Source of the DNA: Actinomycetota bacterium
GTDB taxonomy: Bacteria; Actinomycetota; Thermoleophilia; Gaiellales; Gaiellaceae
NCBI GenBank assembly: GCA_005884575.1
Contig: VAWW01000013.1
Coordinates: forward strand, 1-64,000
DNA: 64,000 nucleotides
Direction of reading: 5' to 3'
Below, piece after piece: positions 29,664 through 37,550 of the stretch. A program made the translations under genes and the position numbers. The notes below the pieces were generated by a model, which saw only the letters and a list, made by a program, of their open reading frames with translations, ran no database searches and was not told where the DNA came from. The stretch's first letter is position 1; every line of letters begins with the position of its first letter.

Positions 29664-30804
29664 CGCGGTCATCGTTGCCGCCGCTCGGACGCCGATCGGT
29701 CGGGCGCGGAAGGGATCGCTCGTCGACGCGCGCCCGGACGATCTGGCCGCGTTCGCGATCTCGGCGGCGCTCGACAAGGTGCGGGAGCTGCCGCGCGAAG
29801 AGATCCTCGACGTGATGGTCGGGTGCGGATTCCCGCAGGACCGGCAGGGGATGAACCTCGCGCGCCGGGCCGCGCTGCTGGCCGGCCTGCCGGAGACCGT
29901 GCCCGGCACGACGGTCAACCGCTTCTGCGCCTCGAGCCTACAGACGATCCGCATGGCCTTCCACGCGGTGCGAGCGGGCGAGGGCGACGCGTTCGTCGCG
30001 GCGGGCGTCGAGTCGATCTCGCAGGTCAACGGCTATCCGAAGGACGCCGAGGAGCTGCATCCGAAGCTGTTCGGCGACGACGCGCCGATCGCGAACGTCT
30101 ACATCCCGATGGGTCTCACGGCGGAGAACGTCGCGGAGCGCTGGAACGTCTCGCGCGAGGACATGGACCGCTACGCGCAGCGCTCGCAGGAGCGCGCCGT
30201 CGCGGCGCAGGAGAGCGGCTTCTTCGACCGCGAGGTGACGCCGTACGACGGCGTCTTGCGCGACGACGGGCCGCGGGCGAGCTCGACACTGGAGAAGCTC
30301 GCCGAGCTCGAGCCCGCGTTCAAGCCGGACGGCAAGGTGACGGCGGGGAACTCGTGTCCGCTCAACGACGGCGCGGCGGCGGTCGTCGTCATGTCGGCGT
30401 CGCGCGCGGCGGAGCTCGGCCTGCGGCCGCGCGCGCGGATCGTCGCGTCGTCGGTGTCCGGTGTCGCGCCCGAGATCATGGGCGTCGGCCCGATCGAGGC
30501 GGTACGGCGTGTCCTGAAACAGGCGCGGATGACGATCGACGACGTCGACGTGGTGGAGCTGAACGAGGCGTTCGCCGCGCAGGTGCTCCCCGTGTGCCGC
30601 GAGATCGGCGTCGACCCCTTCGGCGACAAGCTCAATCCGCACGGCGGAGCGATCGCGCTCGGCCACCCGTACGGAATGACGGGCGCGCGGATCATGAACA
30701 CGCTGCTGAACGACCTCGATACGCTCGATGGGACGATCGGCCTGGAGACGATGTGCGTCGGCGGCGGCCAGGGGATGGCGATGATCGTGGAGCGGCTGAG
30801 CTGA
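29659..30804 (+). CDS. Acetyl-CoA C-acyltransferase (thiolase), start codon unclear
   Basis: Cleaves 3-ketoacyl-CoA with CoA to close a beta-oxidation round. The active-site Cys is in NRFCASSLQT, the His in GGAIALGHPYGMTGAR and the second Cys in CVGGGQGMAM. The conserved N-terminus DAVIVAAARTPIGRARKGS begins at 29662, but no ATG, GTG or TTG lies in frame close before it; the nearest upstream GTG (29572) would add 30 non-thiolase residues overlapping MaoC. A sequence such as GTGACCGAC before GCGGTC would give a normal MTDAVIV start, so about 4 nt may be missing. Otherwise full length. Confidence 0.88.
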   Translation, partial: GDAVIVAAARTPIGRARKGSLVDARPDDLAAFAISAALDKVRELPREEILDVMVGCGFPQDRQGMNLARRAALLAGLPETVPGTTVNRFCASSLQTIRMAFHAVRAGEGDAFVAAGVESISQVNGYPKDAEELHPKLFGDDAPIANVYIPMGLTAENVAERWNVSREDMDRYAQRSQERAVAAQESGFFDREVTPYDGVLRDDGPRASSTLEKLAELEPAFKPDGKVTAGNSCPLNDGAAAVVVMSASRAAELGLRPRARIVASSVSGVAPEIMGVGPIEAVRRVLKQARMTIDDVDVVELNEAFAAQVLPVCREIGVDPFGDKLNPHGGAIALGHPYGMTGARIMNTLLNDLDTLDGTIGLETMCVGGGQGMAMIVERLS

Positions 30805-31586
30805 GTGACCGGTCGCTGCGCGAGACCTTCGACGCGTTTCCCGAGGCGTACGACCGTGCGCGGCCGACGTACCCGGCGGCGGTCTTCGACGATCTCGCGT
30901 CGCTCGCGCGGCTGGGCCCGGGCGCGCGGGTCCTCGAGATCGGGCCCGGGACCGGCCAGGCGACGCAGCCGCTCGCAGAGCGCGGCTTCCGCGTCACCGG
31001 CATCGAGCTCGGCGCCGGCCTCGCCGCGGTCGCGCGGCGCAAGCTGGCCGCATTCCCGGAGGTGGAGATCGTCAATGCGGACTTCGAGACGTGGGAGGCG
31101 GCCGAGGCCGGTTTCGACGCTGTCGTCGCGTTCACGGCGTTCCACTGGATCGACCCGGAGCTCGCGTTCGAGAAGTCGGCGCGCCTCCTGCGCCGTGGCG
31201 GCGCGCTCGCCGTCGTCGCGACGAGTCACGTGTTGCCGGAGGAGGGCGATCCGTTCTTCGTCGAGGTCCAGGAGGAGTACGAGGCAATTGCGCCGAGCGA
31301 GGCCAACGTGCCGCCGCCGCGTCCCGAGGACGCGTCCGACCTGCGCGCGGAGATCCTCGCGAGCGGATTCTTCGGCGCCGTCGAAGTCAGGCGTCACAGC
31401 TGGGACGTGACGTACACGGCGGACGAGTACATCGCCGTCCTCGAGACGTACTCGGGTCACCACGCGTACGGCGACAAGGCGCGGGAGCTGCTCAATGAGC
31501 GCATCCACCGCCGCATCTCGGCGCGCCCCGCCGGCACCGTCCGGAAGTCGTATCTCGCAACGCTGCACGTCGCGCCGCGGCTGTAG
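30801..31586 (+). CDS. Class I SAM-dependent methyltransferase
   Basis: About 261 residues. SAM-binding motif I is RVLEIGPGTGQATQPLAE, followed by FRVTGIELGAGLA (motif II acidic) and FDAVVAFTAFHWIDPE. The family N-terminus SLRETFDAFPEAYDRARPTY is intact, but the only codon in position to start it is a CTG at 30801 overlapping the thiolase stop. A GTG at 30805 is out of frame. The methyl acceptor is unknown; it may not belong to the beta-oxidation pathway. A 7-6-7 palindrome follows 15 nt after the stop. Confidence 0.8.
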   Translation: MSDRSLRETFDAFPEAYDRARPTYPAAVFDDLASLARLGPGARVLEIGPGTGQATQPLAERGFRVTGIELGAGLAAVARRKLAAFPEVEIVNADFETWEAAEAGFDAVVAFTAFHWIDPELAFEKSARLLRRGGALAVVATSHVLPEEGDPFFVEVQEEYEAIAPSEANVPPPRPEDASDLRAEILASGFFGAVEVRRHSWDVTYTADEYIAVLETYSGHHAYGDKARELLNERIHRRISARPAGTVRKSYLATLHVAPRL

Positions 31587-31600
31587 GCCCTGTGGACGAA

Positions 31601-31620
31601 TCGTCACACTTTCGTGACGA
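31601..31620. terminator. Palindrome TCGTCAC-N6-GTGACGA between convergent genes
   Basis: A perfect 7-6-7 inverted repeat with the same arms and spacing as 6975-6994. It lies between the ends of the methyltransferase (+) and the histidine phosphatase (-), where a bidirectional terminator is expected. No T-run flanks it. Confidence 0.45.
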
Positions 31621-31709
31621 AGGACATCTGGCGAGCGGCTGCACGCTCGGGTTACGCTCATGCGTGAGCAGGGGGAGGGTCGGGACCCGAGTTAACTCGC
31701 GTGTACCAT

Positions 31710-32363
31710 CTAAGGCGCGGGCCGGTACTGGGCCCAGTACTCCTCCATCGTCGTCGTGCGCGCCGGCGCGAGTGGGTCGTACGGGACGTAGTTCACGGTT
31801 CGCACGACCCAGCCGTCGTCGCCGAGGTCGAGCACGTTGATGCAGCACGGCGCCTGCTCGAAGCCGCCGAAGTACGCGCGGCCGCCGGCCAGCGCCCGCG
31901 ACAGGATCACTCGGTTCACCGCGCCGTGGAGCACGGCAAGCGCCGTCTCCCAGTCCTCTGCGACCAGCCGCTCCAACGCAGGCAGCACCCGGTCGAGCAG
32001 CTCCTGCAGCGTCTCGCCGCCGAGGAAGCGCGCCGCTTCGTCGCGCACGCGGAGCGCGCCGACGAACGCCTGCTCGACCTCGTCCTCGGCGAGATCGGCA
32101 AGCCGGCCGCCCTCCCACTCCCGGAGCTCCGCCCACGACTCCGCTCCGAGGCCGGGCGCGACAATCCGCGCTGTCTCGATCGTCCGCGGCAACCCGCTCG
32201 TGACGACACGGTCGAGCTCGATCCCGGCGAGCGCGGCCCGGGCGGCCTCCGCCTGCTGCCGGCCGCGATTCGTGAGCGCGACCTCCTGCTGGCGAAACGG
32301 CATTCCGTCGTCGGCGAAGTACGACACCTCCGCGTGGCGCATCAGGTAGAGACGACGGCGCAT
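31710..32363 (-). CDS. Histidine phosphatase (phosphoglycerate-mutase-like)
   Basis: 217 residues with the RHG-type phospho-histidine motif LMRHAEVSYF at residues 7-16 (RHA in place of RHG), SGLPRTIETARIV and the second catalytic His in VLHGAVNRVILS. A phosphatase or mutase for a small phosphate ester or phosphoprotein; the substrate cannot be read from the sequence. Convergent with the methyltransferase and divergent (20 nt) from the acyl-CoA dehydrogenase at 32384. It might remove a phosphate made by the kinase-like domain at 35.9 kb, but no motif proves it. Confidence 0.88.
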   Translation of the reverse strand: MRRRLYLMRHAEVSYFADDGMPFRQQEVALTNRGRQQAEAARAALAGIELDRVVTSGLPRTIETARIVAPGLGAESWAELREWEGGRLADLAEDEVEQAFVGALRVRDEAARFLGGETLQELLDRVLPALERLVAEDWETALAVLHGAVNRVILSRALAGGRAYFGGFEQAPCCINVLDLGDDGWVVRTVNYVPYDPLAPARTTTMEEYWAQYRPAP

Positions 32364-32383
32364 GAGCGTGCGATGCTACGTGC

Positions 32384-33589
32384 ATGGCGGCGACCGATCT
32401 CGCTTCGACGGACTTCGCCGCGCTGCGCGCCGAGTACCGCACCTTCATGGACGAGCACGTCTACCCGAACGAACAGGTGCTCGCGCGCGAGGACGACGCC
32501 GCAGACGCCCTGATCGCGGAGCTCCGCGGACGCGCCAAGGAGGCCGGCCTCTGGGCGCCGCACCTGCCGCCCGACGCCGGCGGCACCGGCCACGGCTTCC
32601 TCGCCTACGCCCACCTGAACGAGGAGATCGGACGCGTGACGTGGGCGCAGCTCGTCTTCAACTGCCAGGCGCCCGACGCGGGCAACGGGGAGATCCTCCA
32701 CCTGTTCGGCACAGAGGAGCAGAAGGAGCGCTTCCTGCGTCCGCTCGTCGAAGGCGAGACACGGTCGTTTTTCTCGATGACCGAGCCGGAGGTCTCCGGT
32801 GCCGACCCGACCGGTTTGCGCACAACTGCCGTGCTCGACGGTGACGAGTGGGTGATCAACGGACACAAGTGGTTCTCGTCCGGCGCGGAAGGCGCGGGCT
32901 TCGGGATCGTCATGGCCGCGACCGAACCCGACGCGGGGCCGTACGAACGAATGAGCCAGATCCTCGTTCCCGCCGAGACCAAGGGGATCGAGATCAGGCC
33001 GGTGCCGATCCTCGGCCACCCCGGCCGCGGCTGGTCGACGCACTGCGAGGTGTGGTACCGCGACGTGCGCGTCCCGGCCGAGAACGTCCTCGGCGGCCGC
33101 GGCGCGGGCTTCCTGATCGCCCAGAAGCGGCTCGGCCCCGGCCGGATCCACCACGTCATGCGCTGGCTCGGCCAGATGCAGCGGGCGTTCGACCTGATGT
33201 GCACGCGCGCGCTCGAGCGCGAGGCGTTCGGCGGCAAGCTCGCGGACAAGCAGACGATCCAGAACTGGATCGCCGACTCAGCGGCGGAGATCCAGGCCTG
33301 CCGGCTGCTCACGCTCGACGCCGCCCACAAGATCGACGCCGGCGACGAGGCGCGCGTCGAGATCTCGCTGATCAAATTCTACGCGGCGAAGGTGCTGACC
33401 GACGTGATCGACCGCGCCCTCCAGGTGCACGGCGCCCTCGGACTGACGGACAGGTCGCCGCTGGGCCACATGTATCAGATGGCCCGCGGCGCACACATCT
33501 ACGACGGCCCCGATGAGGTGCATCGCATGGTTGTCTCGCGGCGGATCCTCAAGGCCTTCGCCGACGGCGAGGGCTGGCAGTTCAACTAG
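32384..33589 (+). CDS. Acyl-CoA dehydrogenase (ACAD10/11-like)
   Basis: 401-residue FAD enzyme. The flavin/substrate motif is FFSMTEPEVSGADPTGL, then VINGHKWFSSGAEGAGF, and the C-terminal part contains ALQVHGALGLTDRSPLGHMYQ. The TEPEVSGAD(P/T) form and the GRIHHVMRWLGQMQRAFD segment are typical of the ACAD10/11 branch. Human ACAD11 uses a fused kinase domain to process 4-hydroxy acids. Here a phosphotransferase domain of that general type is encoded 2.3 kb downstream. Substrate unproven. Its end overlaps the convergent acetyltransferase by 8 nt. Confidence 0.9.
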   Translation: MAATDLASTDFAALRAEYRTFMDEHVYPNEQVLAREDDAADALIAELRGRAKEAGLWAPHLPPDAGGTGHGFLAYAHLNEEIGRVTWAQLVFNCQAPDAGNGEILHLFGTEEQKERFLRPLVEGETRSFFSMTEPEVSGADPTGLRTTAVLDGDEWVINGHKWFSSGAEGAGFGIVMAATEPDAGPYERMSQILVPAETKGIEIRPVPILGHPGRGWSTHCEVWYRDVRVPAENVLGGRGAGFLIAQKRLGPGRIHHVMRWLGQMQRAFDLMCTRALEREAFGGKLADKQTIQNWIADSAAEIQACRLLTLDAAHKIDAGDEARVEISLIKFYAAKVLTDVIDRALQVHGALGLTDRSPLGHMYQMARGAHIYDGPDEVHRMVVSRRILKAFADGEGWQFN

Positions 33590-34307
33590 GCCGCTGCCAC
33601 TGGCGGAGCGCACCCACTTGCTCGAAGCCAAGCCTCCGGTAGAGGTTCTCCGCCTCGGGACTGGGGCTCAGCGACGCCGGAACCACAGGATCGATGAGAG
33701 CGCGAGTCAACGCCGACCCATAGCCGCGTCCCCGAGCGGATGCAACCGTCGTCACGCCGTAGATGCCGACGACCGCGTCGGTGCGGTAGCTCATTGCCGC
33801 GGCGACGGCGTCCCCGCCGACCCGGCCGGTCAGCATCGTCATGCGCGGGTCGTCCAGAATCGAGGCGGGATGAAGCGATCCCGTTTCGACGGCCGCGTCG
33901 TCGCCTCCGAAGCCGCGCACGCTGACGCGCTCGAACTCGGCGACCTCGGCAGGTGTCGACACGCGCACGACCTCGAGCTCCGGCGGGACCGCCCCGGCTG
34001 GAATCGGTCCGGCGGGACGCACGAACCACGGCTCGCGTGCCGTCGCGGCTCTACCGTCGCGATCGCGCTCGACGAAGCCGAACGGCTCCAGGTCGAGCGT
34101 CGACCAGGAGTCGCACACCGTTCCCTGTGTCTCGCTGACGGCTGTCGCGGAGACATCCGGCGCGAGCGCGATCGCACCGAAGTAGATGAACGGCGGCGCA
34201 TCGACCGCGCGCCACACGGAGTCGCTGCGCTCCGACCGCAGCCCGAGCGCGGCGAGCCACGACGCGTGCCACGCTGCGACGACGTCCGCGCAGAACGCGA
34301 CGGTCAT
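33582..34307 (-). CDS. GNAT-family N-acetyltransferase
   Basis: 241 residues from the ATG at 34307. The C-terminal half is a clear GNAT domain: GIYGVTTVASARGRGYGSAL (acetyl-CoA pyrophosphate loop RGRGYG) and LSPSPEAENLYRRLGFEQVG. The N-terminal half is a weakly conserved GNAT-like lobe (CADVVAAWHASWLAALGLRS). Substrate unknown. The ATGA overlap with the SDR stop couples it to that gene. Confidence 0.85.
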   Translation of the reverse strand: MTVAFCADVVAAWHASWLAALGLRSERSDSVWRAVDAPPFIYFGAIALAPDVSATAVSETQGTVCDSWSTLDLEPFGFVERDRDGRAATAREPWFVRPAGPIPAGAVPPELEVVRVSTPAEVAEFERVSVRGFGGDDAAVETGSLHPASILDDPRMTMLTGRVGGDAVAAAMSYRTDAVVGIYGVTTVASARGRGYGSALTRALIDPVVPASLSPSPEAENLYRRLGFEQVGALRQWQRPS

Positions 34308-34996
34308 CCGGGGGGCGGACCGACACGCGCTCCCGCCGGATCGCGCGGCCCCGGGATGTTCGGGAACCGGAACTGCAGCGGCTCGCGGCCCGGCTGCACG
34401 ACGAAGACCTGTCCCGTTTCCGCGCTCCGCGCCGCCAGCAGCACCGCGCGCGCGACGTCGTCCGGGCGCAGCAACGGGAAGCCGGCTTCGTCGAAGCGCT
34501 CCTTCGCGTCCCCGATCATCGGCGTGTCGACGAAGCCGGGCGCGACGGCGTTGATCCGGATCCCGAGCGCTTCCAGCTGCGGCGCAGCGCTCCGGACGAA
34601 GCCGACGACCGCGTGCTTCGTCAGCGTGTAGACCGGATCCTCGGGTGCGGGGATCAGCCCCGCCAGCGACGCCGTCGCCACGATCGCGCCGCCCGGTTGC
34701 ATGACGCGGCTGAGGCGCCGCGTGCCGAGGACGACGCCGTCGACGTTTGCGCCGAGGATCCGCCGGTACTGCGCGTCCGTCAGCGCCGCCATGTTGCCCT
34801 CGCCGGTGACGACGCCGGCGTTCAGGCAGGCGAGCTCGACCGGCCCGACCTCCTCCCACGCTGCCGGATCGGAGACGTCGAAGCCGTCGCTCAGATCGAG
34901 CGCGCGCACCTCGGCGCCCTCGTCGCGCAGAAGTCCCACGATCGCTGCGCCGATCCCGGATGCGCCGCCGGTGACGAGAGCCGTGCGCGGAAACAT
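34304..34996 (-). CDS. Short-chain dehydrogenase/reductase
   Basis: 230 residues, classical SDR: TGGASGIGAAIVGLL, a CLNAGVV in place of the usual NNAG, catalytic Ser in ATASLAGLIP and Tyr-Lys in YTLTKHA. The C-terminal tail is Pro/Gly-rich. Short for the class and without a clear substrate clue. It is divergent from the F420 luciferase-like gene (14 nt between starts) and coupled to a GNAT gene downstream. Confidence 0.85.
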   Translation of the reverse strand: MFPRTALVTGGASGIGAAIVGLLRDEGAEVRALDLSDGFDVSDPAAWEEVGPVELACLNAGVVTGEGNMAALTDAQYRRILGANVDGVVLGTRRLSRVMQPGGAIVATASLAGLIPAPEDPVYTLTKHAVVGFVRSAAPQLEALGIRINAVAPGFVDTPMIGDAKERFDEAGFPLLRPDDVARAVLLAARSAETGQVFVVQPGREPLQFRFPNIPGPRDPAGARVGPPPG

Positions 34997-35010
34997 GGAA
35001 ACATCGTCTC

Positions 35011-35928
35011 ATGCGCATGGCCCTGACGGTTCCGATCCGCGACGTGCCGCTCGTGGACGTGCCCGCGATCGTCCGCCGCGCGGAATCGGCCGGCTACGAC
35101 AGCATCTGGTCGGAGGAGTCGACGAACTACGACGGATTTTCGCCACTCGTCGTCGCCGCCCAGCACACCGAGCGGATGCGGCTCGCGACCGGCATCGTCA
35201 ACGTCTACACGCGCGGCCCCGCGCTGCTTGCGCAGTCGGCTGCGGCGCTCGCCGATCTCTCCGGGGGCCGCTTCATCCTCGGTCTCGGTGCCTCCTCGAA
35301 CGTCATCGTGGAGCAGTGGAACCGCATTCCGTTCGAGCGGCCGCTCACGAAGGTGCGCGAGACCGTCGAGATCCTCCGCGCCGTCCTCGCAGGCGAACGC
35401 GGGCCCGGCGGCTTCAGGCTCTCCCAGGTGCCGCCGCCGGTGCCGATCGTGCTCGCCGCACTGCGGGAGCGGATGCTCCGCCTCGCCGGCGAGATCGCCG
35501 ACGGCGCCTTCGCGAACTTCCTTCCGCTGAGCGGCGCGCCGCGAGTCGTCGACGCATTCGGCGCGCCGGAGAAGGAGCTCGCCTGCCGCTTCTTCTCGAT
35601 CGACGGGCCCGAGGACGAGGCGCTCGCAGCGGCGAAGCGGATCTTCGTCGCGTACGCGACCGTGCCGGTGTACACGGAGTTCTTCTGCTGGCTCGGCTTC
35701 GGCGAGGAGCTCGATCCCGTGGTCGGCGCGTGGACGGCAGGTGACCGAAAGCGCGCCGTCGAGCTCGCGCCGGACCGGCTCGTCCGCGAGATCTTCCTGC
35801 TCGGTCCCGTCGAAGCGCAGCGCGAGCGGCTCGCCGCATTCGCCGAGGCCGGGATCGACACCGCGGTTCTCCTTCCCTTCTGCCCGCCGGACCGGCTCGC
35901 AGCGACGATCGACGCGTTCGGCGCATGA
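35011..35928 (+). CDS. LLM-class F420-dependent oxidoreductase
   Basis: 305-residue TIM-barrel of the bacterial-luciferase-like family: IVRRAESAGYDSIWSEEST, MRLATGIVNVYTRGPALLAQ and the FILGLGASS segment are characteristic of F420-dependent members such as methylene-H4MPT-reductase-like and actinobacterial LLM enzymes. Likely oxidises or reduces an alcohol/imine with F420; the substrate is unknown. It starts at the ATG at 35011 and overlaps the next gene by 4 nt, so it is the head of a short operon reaching to 39.9 kb. Confidence 0.9.
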   Translation: MRMALTVPIRDVPLVDVPAIVRRAESAGYDSIWSEESTNYDGFSPLVVAAQHTERMRLATGIVNVYTRGPALLAQSAAALADLSGGRFILGLGASSNVIVEQWNRIPFERPLTKVRETVEILRAVLAGERGPGGFRLSQVPPPVPIVLAALRERMLRLAGEIADGAFANFLPLSGAPRVVDAFGAPEKELACRFFSIDGPEDEALAAAKRIFVAYATVPVYTEFFCWLGFGEELDPVVGAWTAGDRKRAVELAPDRLVREIFLLGPVEAQRERLAAFAEAGIDTAVLLPFCPPDRLAATIDAFGA

Positions 35929-37550
35929 CGGACCAGCCGATGAGCGACGAGGAGCTGCACGAGATCTGGGTCGGCGACGTCCCACAGCTCTCCGGACCGG
36001 TCGAGCTCGTCGAGTACGACCCCGACTGGCCGCGCCTCTACGAGCGCGAGGCCGCGCGCATCCGCGCAGCACTCGGGGACGCGGTCGTGCAGCTCGAGCA
36101 CACCGGTTCGACGGCGGTCCCCGGTCTCGTCGCGAAGCCGCGCATCGACATGCTGCTCGTCGTCCCCGACTCGGCGGACGAGCCCGCGTACGTGCCGGGG
36201 CTCGAGGCCGCCGGCTACACCCTGGTCATTCGCGAGCCCGAGTGGTACGAGCATCGGATCTTCAAGGGCCCGGACACCGACGTGAACCTGCACGTCTTCT
36301 CGCCGGAGTCGCCGGAGATCGAGCGCGTCCTGTTCTTCCGCGACCGGCTGCGAACGAACGATGCCGATCGCGGGCTCTACGCCCGCACCAAGCGCGAGCT
36401 CGCGCAGCGGAGCTGGAAGTACGTCCAGAACTATGCCGACGCGAAGTCGGAGGTGGTCGAGGAGATCATTGCGCGGGCACGGCAGGGAGCGGACGTCGTC
36501 GAGACCCCAAAGGAGGCGGAGGGCCTCGACCGGCCGCCGCTGCTCGTCCTCGACCGCGTTCGCGGCTTCCTCGACGAGCACGGGCTCGGCTCCGGCCCGA
36601 TTCGCGCGCGGCGGATCGGCGAGGGCGGCGGCTCGAACTTCACCTTCCTGCTCGAGCGCGACGACGGCCGTTTCGTGCTGCGGCGCCCGCCGCGTCCGCC
36701 GCTGCCGCCGTCCGCGCACGACATGGTGCGCGAGGCACGGCTGCAGCTCGCGCTCGCGCCGCACGGGATCCGCCTGCCGCCGATCCTCGCCGTCGGCGAC
36801 GACGAAGGCGTGATCGGCGTCCCGTTCTATGTCATGGGCTACCTCGAGGGCTTCGTCGTCGCGAACGAGCTTCCGCCGGGTCTCGACGAGGCGGGGCGCC
36901 GGCGCCTCGGCGAGGATCTCGTCGACACCCTCGTCGAGATCCACGCAGCGGACGTGCGCGAGCCGGCGCTCGCCGCGTTCGTCCGCCCGGGCAGCTATCT
37001 CGAGCGGCAGGTGCGCCGGTTCACGCAGCTCTGGGAGCTGAACCAGACGCGCGAGCTGCCGCAGGTCGTCGCCGTGGGCCGCTGGCTCGCCGAGCACCTG
37101 CCGGAGCCGCTGCCGCCGACCGTCGTTCACGGCGACTACCGGCTCGGGAACGTGATGGTCGACCGCGAGCGACCCGACCGGATCGTCGCCGTCCTCGACT
37201 GGGAGATGGGCGCGATCGGCGACCCGCGCGCGGACGTCGGCTACCTGCTGGCGACGTACAGCGAGCCCGGCGGCGAGCCCAGCCCGCTTGGAACGTCCCC
37301 GGTCACCGCGACGGCCGGGTTCCCGTCGAAGGCCGAGCTCGTCGAGCGGTACATCGCGGCGAGCGGCCGAGACGTCGAGCCGCTCGCCTGGTTCGAGGCG
37401 CTCGCCCTCTGGAAGGCCGCGGTCTTCTGCGAGGCGATCTACGGACGCTACGTCCGGGGCGAGCTCGGCGCGGAGGACACCCGCGCGGCGCGCTTCGAGC
37501 TCGGCGTGCCCTACCTCGCCGAGACCGCAGCGAGCATCATCTCGGCATGA
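35925..37550 (+). CDS. GrpB-domain / aminoglycoside-phosphotransferase-domain fusion
   Basis: 541 residues in two domains. Residues about 20-185 are a GrpB (UPF0157, nucleotidyltransferase-fold) domain: VELVEYDPDWPRLYEREAAR, QLEHTGSTAVPGLVAKPRID (the GST and KPxID acidic motifs) and DVNLHVFSPES. Residues about 205-541 are a choline/APH-type kinase domain with RIGEGGGSNFTFLLE, VVHGDYRLGNVMV (catalytic Asp) and VLDWEMGAIGDP (Mg-binding). The kinase part resembles the ACAD10/11-associated phosphotransferases. Fusion of these two is unusual. It is coupled to the F420 enzyme (4-nt overlap) and to the next gene. Confidence 0.88.
   Translation: MTDQPMSDEELHEIWVGDVPQLSGPVELVEYDPDWPRLYEREAARIRAALGDAVVQLEHTGSTAVPGLVAKPRIDMLLVVPDSADEPAYVPGLEAAGYTLVIREPEWYEHRIFKGPDTDVNLHVFSPESPEIERVLFFRDRLRTNDADRGLYARTKRELAQRSWKYVQNYADAKSEVVEEIIARARQGADVVETPKEAEGLDRPPLLVLDRVRGFLDEHGLGSGPIRARRIGEGGGSNFTFLLERDDGRFVLRRPPRPPLPPSAHDMVREARLQLALAPHGIRLPPILAVGDDEGVIGVPFYVMGYLEGFVVANELPPGLDEAGRRRLGEDLVDTLVEIHAADVREPALAAFVRPGSYLERQVRRFTQLWELNQTRELPQVVAVGRWLAEHLPEPLPPTVVHGDYRLGNVMVDRERPDRIVAVLDWEMGAIGDPRADVGYLLATYSEPGGEPSPLGTSPVTATAGFPSKAELVERYIAASGRDVEPLAWFEALALWKAAVFCEAIYGRYVRGELGAEDTRAARFELGVPYLAETAASIISA

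Follow-up and report, generated by a model that had tools for sequence, protein, structure and literature searches.

A gene in the genome of a Gaiellaceae bacterium encodes a GrpB domain and a kinase of the APH fold in a single polypeptide. This is a new architecture built from known parts, and it was found in one genome only. On balance, and with moderate confidence, we read its product as a 4-hydroxyacyl-CoA kinase that carries a tethered, independently working GrpB, the two having been joined in this lineage by insertion of a GrpB gene. What we observed directly are both domains and the residues they keep, the surrounding gene cluster, the same cluster without GrpB in relatives, and trees that differ between the two halves.

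Architecture of the fusion gene

The gene lies in a 64,000-nucleotide stretch of DNA, referred to here as the window (positions 1-64,000 of contig VAWW01000013.1, assembly GCA_005884575.1), from an Actinomycetota bacterium of the order Gaiellales, family Gaiellaceae. The assembly consists of 130 contigs and is 91% complete. A first-pass annotation of the DNA had called a fusion of GrpB and an APH-type kinase, and the call was borne out: the open reading frame agrees exactly, and both Pfam matches lie far above their cut-offs (for GrpB, 168.2 bits against 25.5). The motifs quoted in that annotation are also all present, with GST inside HTGST (residues 59-63), KPxID formed by K71 and PRID (72-75), HGDYRLGN at 402-409, and DWE at 425-427. 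Coordinates of the gene, its parts and its neighbors are given in Table 1.

Table 1. The fusion gene, its parts, and neighboring genes (positions in the window)
Feature	Position	Strand	Remarks
Thiolase	29707..30804	+	Cluster member in part of the relatives
Histidine phosphatase superfamily protein	31710..32363	-	Relative adjoins the kinase in some relatives
ACAD11/LvaC-type acyl-CoA dehydrogenase (ACAD)	32384..33589	+	R249, R254, H257, R260, D374 correspond to ACAD11 R626, R631, H634, R637, D753
Short-chain dehydrogenase (SDR)	34304..34996	-	Conserved cluster member
LLM-class F420-dependent oxidoreductase	35011..35928	+	Stop overlaps the fusion ATG; directly 5' of the kinase in GrpB-free relatives
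GrpB-kinase fusion gene	35925..37550	+	541 aa; single ORF without internal stop
GrpB domain (PF04229), residues 25-183	35997..36473	+	Pfam E 2e-49; nucleotidyltransferase fold
Junction, residues 184-192 (RARQGADVV)	36474..36500	+	About where lone GrpBs stop and lone kinases start
APH-fold kinase (PF01636), residues 233-485	36621..37379	+	Pfam E 1.6e-45; LvaA/ACAD11 type

The LLM oxidoreductase gene lies just upstream, and its stop codon and the start codon of the fusion overlap in an ATGA. In fusion numbering, lone GrpBs finish at about residue 185-190, and the nearest GrpB-free kinases (about 71-77% identity) start at about residue 187-190. A complete GrpB is therefore joined to a complete kinase, with a linker only about three residues long between them. 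No in-frame start codon was found in the junction. No second GrpB was found in the source genome.

Distribution and origin of the fusion

We surveyed the family of the window using thresholds of E <= 1e-30 and at least 55% identity, and the fusion was present in one of 103 genomes. Relatives of the kinase occurred in 21 of the 102 other family genomes and relatives of GrpB in 9; three genomes (G035, G038, and G039) have both, on different contigs. Beyond this survey, none of 109 other loci collected at E 1e-8, some of them gene duplicates and some short or cut, carried both halves. Among the matches listed for a class-level sample of 399 genomes, only that of the window spans both halves. None of 72,556 plasmid records contained a single region matching 80% of the query, and the GrpB-APH architecture was absent from the 88 other extended GrpB frames. 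One candidate, in G273 (match 155-540, two TGA codons), was rejected because its extension in locus L112 reads through stops into an LLM gene and holds no GrpB. The first-pass annotation had proposed looking for the same architecture; among the genomes surveyed, only the source genome has it. Of the two signs of a spurious fusion that it named, absence from relatives holds among those examined, while nothing points to the other, a stop or misassembly between the domains. The combination is not among the five architectures listed for the GrpB family in the available portion of a 2009 paper (PMC2765170), and no paper on GrpB-APH was found within the limited part of the literature searched.

To place the kinase half in its genomic setting, we counted neighbors at 15 loci with a kinase of at least 65% identity and 5 kb of sequence on at least one side, accepting neighbor relatives at 55% identity or more. 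The ACAD was present at 12 of the 15 loci, the SDR at 10, the thiolase at 7, the histidine phosphatase at 6, and the LLM oxidoreductase at 4. An ACAD relative was not found at L039, L041, and L092; L039 and L092 each have a short flank, but L041 extends 8 kb to either side of the kinase. Loci L032, L037, and L038 have the order thiolase-ACAD-SDR-LLM-kinase and L046 has ACAD-SDR-LLM-kinase, which is the order of the window minus GrpB. The gap between the LLM and kinase matches is about 30-40 bases in L032, L038, and L046 and about 1.1 kb in L037.

Two further features of these loci were observed. The gap in L037 (6917-8004) contains an open frame on the opposite strand with an APH-like motif, VVTHGEPHGGNVM. 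More broadly, positions 29707-37550 of the window form a split cluster of the ACAD11/LvaA-LvaC type. Gaiellaceae-like genomes have this cluster in two gene orders, and in one of them the histidine phosphatase and kinase genes are divergent.

The two halves have different neighbors in trees built with FastTree. The GrpB half shares a clade of support 0.87, itself below an unsupported node, with L133 and three Amycolatopsis GrpBs (L062, L074, and L086), apart from the family GrpBs L016, L018, L020, and L220, in a tree that includes about four of the nine family genomes with a close GrpB. The kinase half falls in a 13-tip clade (support 0.96) whose other 12 tips are all from the family of the window. 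Taken with the GrpB-free cluster in relatives, the differing trees suggest that a GrpB gene was probably inserted between the LLM and kinase genes and then lost its stop codon. The inserted gene was probably acquired horizontally.

A recent loss of a stop codon could also have joined two unrelated enzymes neutrally, with no functional coupling, and we give this explanation appreciable, though minority, weight. The presence of the fusion in a single family genome, the very short linker between two complete halves, and the differing trees are all consistent with it. So is the model of the 541-aa protein, whose pTM of 0.65 indicates no confident interface; for this reason, nothing is drawn from the relative placement of the domains. 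However, both halves keep nearly all of their conserved columns (71 of 71 in the kinase and, in GrpB, 43 of the 44 that are 95% conserved in 60 relatives), and the fused GrpB sequence bears no sign of decay. Root-to-tip distances are not elongated either (0.60 against a median of 0.65 for the GrpB half and 0.58 against 0.74 for the kinase half), although the GrpB tip branch, at 0.295, is above the median tip of 0.164. Since the fusion may have occurred anywhere along that branch, conservation and branch length argue only weakly against neutrality.

The kinase half and its likely substrate

When compared with the PDB by sequence, the kinase half best matched 9o56 (E 5e-61), which is labeled only "aminoglycoside phosphotransferase," followed by 3dxp (E 1.5e-42) and ACAD11 (8v3v; E 3e-39). 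A fold search with the whole 541-aa model placed 3dxp first and the 25-hydroxysteroid kinase 9fsg second (E 1.6e-16), and neither ACAD11 nor 9o56 was among the best 50 matches listed. The kinase half failed as an aminoglycoside resistance enzyme, scoring 21.2 bits against 205 for NCBIfam APH(3') and 19.2 against 400 for viomycin phosphotransferase.

According to the available text of two studies, ACAD10/11 and LvaA/LvaC turn over 4-hydroxyacyl-CoA via a 4-phospho intermediate (PMC12440821, PMC11342911). The first of these describes the roles of ACAD11 residues D220 (catalytic), N225, and R176 (CoA-side), and all three have counterparts in the fusion, D404, N409, and R361. This matching covers those three residues, and ACAD11 R86 has no numbered match in the row count.

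The ACAD of the cluster is related to the same system. Its best three PDB matches are ACAD11 chains (E 4e-90, 2e-89, and 4e-85), followed by 4hr3 (E 9e-81) and then a gap to 5e-55. The text available links ACAD11 R626, H634, and R637 with the 4-phospho group and identifies the base as the Asp D753 (PMC12440821). The ACAD of the window has the HxMR motif (HVMR where ACAD11 has HCMR), the upstream Arg, and the Asp base, represented by R249, H257, R260, and D374. Because the neighboring ACAD, an ACAD11-type enzyme, keeps the phosphate-handling residues, the kinase half most likely phosphorylates the 4-hydroxyl group of 4-hydroxyacyl-CoAs. The first-pass annotation had listed 4-hydroxyacyl-CoAs among several candidate substrates, and action on a (4-hydroxy)acyl-CoA gains support, at the level of sequence, from the relatedness to the ACAD11 kinase domain, the three matching residues, and the conserved ACAD11-type cluster.

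The locus resembles the lva and ACAD10/11 systems in its kinase type and catalytic residues, lva in having separate kinase and ACAD genes within one cluster, and ACAD11 in the Asp base and phosphate-binding Arg and His of its ACAD. The likeness was established by comparison with ACAD11. Unlike LvaA and ACAD11, the kinase of the window bears an N-terminal GrpB, and its cluster differs from lva in adding an LLM F420-type oxidoreductase and a histidine phosphatase. Another hydroxylated compound, such as a hydroxysteroid side chain, is an unlikely substrate. The fold match to 9fsg, which also matches by sequence (E 7e-12), speaks for it, but ACAD11 is much closer by sequence and the adjoining ACAD is of the ACAD11 type, phosphate-handling residues included.

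Fold and conserved site of the GrpB domain

A review, in the part available, places GrpB among the nucleotidyltransferase folds (PMC7288161). The model of the fused domain (pLDDT 94.6) aligned with E. faecalis GrpB (2nrk; Z 18.6, 159 residues, 2.5 A) and with the GrpB part of M. paratuberculosis CoaE (6n39, residues 210-402; Z 16.8, 166 residues, 2.7 A). Foldseek matched the model to CCA-adding enzymes and URT1 (E 2e-4 to 9e-4) and also to Cid1, and VIA-align matched it to CD-NTases and uridylyltransferases with Z scores of 7-8, a middling value. By these matches, the domain has a nucleotidyltransferase fold. The fused copy shares this fold and its conserved residues with the lone GrpB 2nrk, but it belongs to a subfamily with an invariant WKYVQNYAD (43 aligned members). 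A 20-row alignment was used in preference to a mixed one, in which the GrpB rows had low identities and seemed misaligned.

Active nucleotidyltransferases carry a GS motif followed by DhD, a metal-binding pair of carboxylates. We examined conservation in 211 distinct GrpB rows, about 199 of which are lettered at each site. Residues kept in at least 90% of these rows are H59, G61, S62, T63, K71, D75, H123, R139, Y152, K156, Y170, and K174, and the fused copy has H59, G61, S62, T63, D75, Y152, K156, Y170, and K174. A second carboxylate beside D75 was sought across the family: position 73 is acidic in 0 of 199 rows and position 77 in 3%, while position 72, acidic in 12%, is out of register with DhD. 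By sequence, then, GS and D75 are kept and the pair is incomplete across the family, which makes canonical two-metal nucleotidyl transfer doubtful. The catalytic role that the earlier description gave to KPxID is accordingly putative: the motif, though conserved family-wide, supplies a single carboxylate of the DhD pair.

GrpB as a fusion partner in other genomes

In a 2009 count, 201 of 244 GrpB sequences were single-domain, and the fusions listed in the available text included those with CoaE, acetyltransferases, and a deaminase (PMC2765170). The statement that GrpB is usually single-domain therefore holds for the majority, though many fusions exist. A script applied to 291 loci yielded 225 open frames with GrpB, of which 95 extend at least 100 aa beyond that domain; because these frames run from stop to stop, one may be long and still lack a further domain. 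We submitted 89 distinct extended frames to Pfam. Five frames that their equal length and score marked as second copies of a gene (in one case the gene in the window) were excluded, as was L218, a weak 22-bit match; no row was contained in another.

At E <= 1e-4, and counting from the best 25 of 39 Pfam families, the partners were CoaE (12 of the 89 frames), peptidase C26 (8), GNAT (Acetyltransf_1; 5), AAA_33 (5; some may be CoaE frames, but L085 has AAA_33 without CoaE), MsrA (3), PurK-type ATP-grasp (2), Sir2 (2), class I methyltransferase (2), dCMP deaminase (2), and GH3, LCM, TsaE, and APH (1 each, the last being the window). A second domain was present in 21 of 40 extended frames scanned singly, and these scans add glyoxalase, phosphodiesterase, 2OG oxygenase, alpha/beta hydrolase, and an aminoglycoside-adenylyltransferase-like domain. 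Besides APH, there are at least 17 kinds of partner. GrpB is a promiscuous fusion partner, and because it is joined to so many unrelated enzymes, no single fusion reveals its function.

Within the family of the window, GrpB is fused to GH3 (L018, G023), 2OG oxygenase (L220, G239), Sir2 (L025, G034), and TsaE (L026, G046). Loci L018, L220, L025, L026, L239, L279, and L284 carry unusual fusions, with GH3, 2OG-Fe(II) oxygenase, Sir2, TsaE, MsrA, phosphodiesterase, and the aminoglycoside-adenylyltransferase-like domain as partners. Some GrpB fusions are lineage-bound; eight similar N-terminal stretches, including that of the C26 frame L149, come from eight genomes of one family (f19). The extended frames L135, L174, L066, L071, L179, and L289 have N-terminal stretches that are alike in pairs. 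Single scans of L135, L066, and L179 found no Pfam domain besides GrpB, and the paired stretches may represent either partner domains without a name or read-through of non-coding sequence.

A close known system is CoaE-GrpB (M. tuberculosis Rv1631; 6n39), in which GrpB is likewise joined to a kinase of CoA metabolism. There, however, GrpB is C-terminal and its partner is a P-loop dephospho-CoA kinase, whereas here GrpB is N-terminal and its partner has the APH fold. Pfam found no CoaE domain in the fusion, and the match to NCBIfam PRK03333 was confined to residues 24-191, with 84 bits against a cut-off of 215. For M. tuberculosis CoaE, the available text reports that the GrpB domain is required for soluble folding of the kinase and that regulatory, methyltransferase, and phosphopantetheinyl-transferase roles of GrpB were tested and ruled out (PMC2765170).

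Relationship between the two halves

The CoaE precedent, the GrpB-free kinases of relatives, and the breadth of partners lead us to favor a tethered GrpB that acts independently. From the observations given above, we infer the substrate, the independence of the halves, and the order of events. The kinase half would phosphorylate the 4-hydroxyl group of 4-hydroxyacyl-CoA with ATP, and the ACAD11-type dehydrogenase would then eliminate phosphate to give 2-enoyl-CoA for beta-oxidation, with the thiolase and SDR of the same cluster beside this route. The GrpB half, its family site intact, would play no part in the kinase reaction; its gene would have landed between the LLM and kinase genes and lost its stop. 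GrpB may aid folding or solubility, as in M. tuberculosis CoaE, or perform its own chemistry. Since GrpB is C-terminal in CoaE and N-terminal here, the folding role need not carry over, and a mere folding tag would not need the conserved site that the fusion keeps.

The first-pass annotation had instead proposed that a single small molecule or CoA ester is the target of both domains, with nucleotidyl transfer by one and phosphoryl transfer by the other. We consider this improbable. The nucleotidyltransferase fold with GS and D75 kept is compatible with it, as is the fact that CoaE and acetyltransferases, known as partners since 2009, handle CoA. Yet CoaE and GNAT are presumably the only CoA-handling kinds among the 17 or more other partners, which also include peptidase C26, MsrA, PurK, and Sir2, and we rejected CoA as a common theme. 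Moreover, the 21 other family genomes with the kinase all have it without a fused GrpB, relatives of the kinase, ACAD, thiolase, SDR, or LLM gene lay near GrpB in 0 of 38 loci (5 kb on a side), and the DhD pair is incomplete across the GrpB family. With mostly unrelated partners, a fusion in one genome, and a missing carboxylate, nucleotide transfer by GrpB to the substrate of the kinase is not supported; successive action of the two halves on one CoA ester is conceivable, but proximity is all that speaks for it.

A broader idea, to which we likewise give little credence, is that GrpB is a group-transfer enzyme for small molecules or cofactors with a non-canonical metal site, tethered to similar enzymes (acetyltransferases, the adenylyltransferase-like domain, methyltransferases, P-loop kinases, and the 4-hydroxyacyl-CoA kinase) so that each pair would modify the same or successive metabolites. 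Finally, a GrpB fragment mis-joined into the contig during assembly, as a single occurrence in a 130-contig assembly might suggest, is very unlikely, given an in-frame 3' junction, a 5' junction that forms the ATGA overlap with the LLM gene, flanks that both match the cluster of relatives, similar GC3 in the LLM (0.905), GrpB (0.920), and kinase (0.941) parts, and no second GrpB found in the genome.

For the widespread and poorly understood GrpB family, the tethered arrangement that we favor is a caution, in that a fusion is a weak clue to GrpB function. It is also a tool, offering an assayable kinase partner for measuring mutants of the GrpB site. For the organism, whose actinobacterial family has received little study, the locus is a pointer to an ACAD11-type system in split form.
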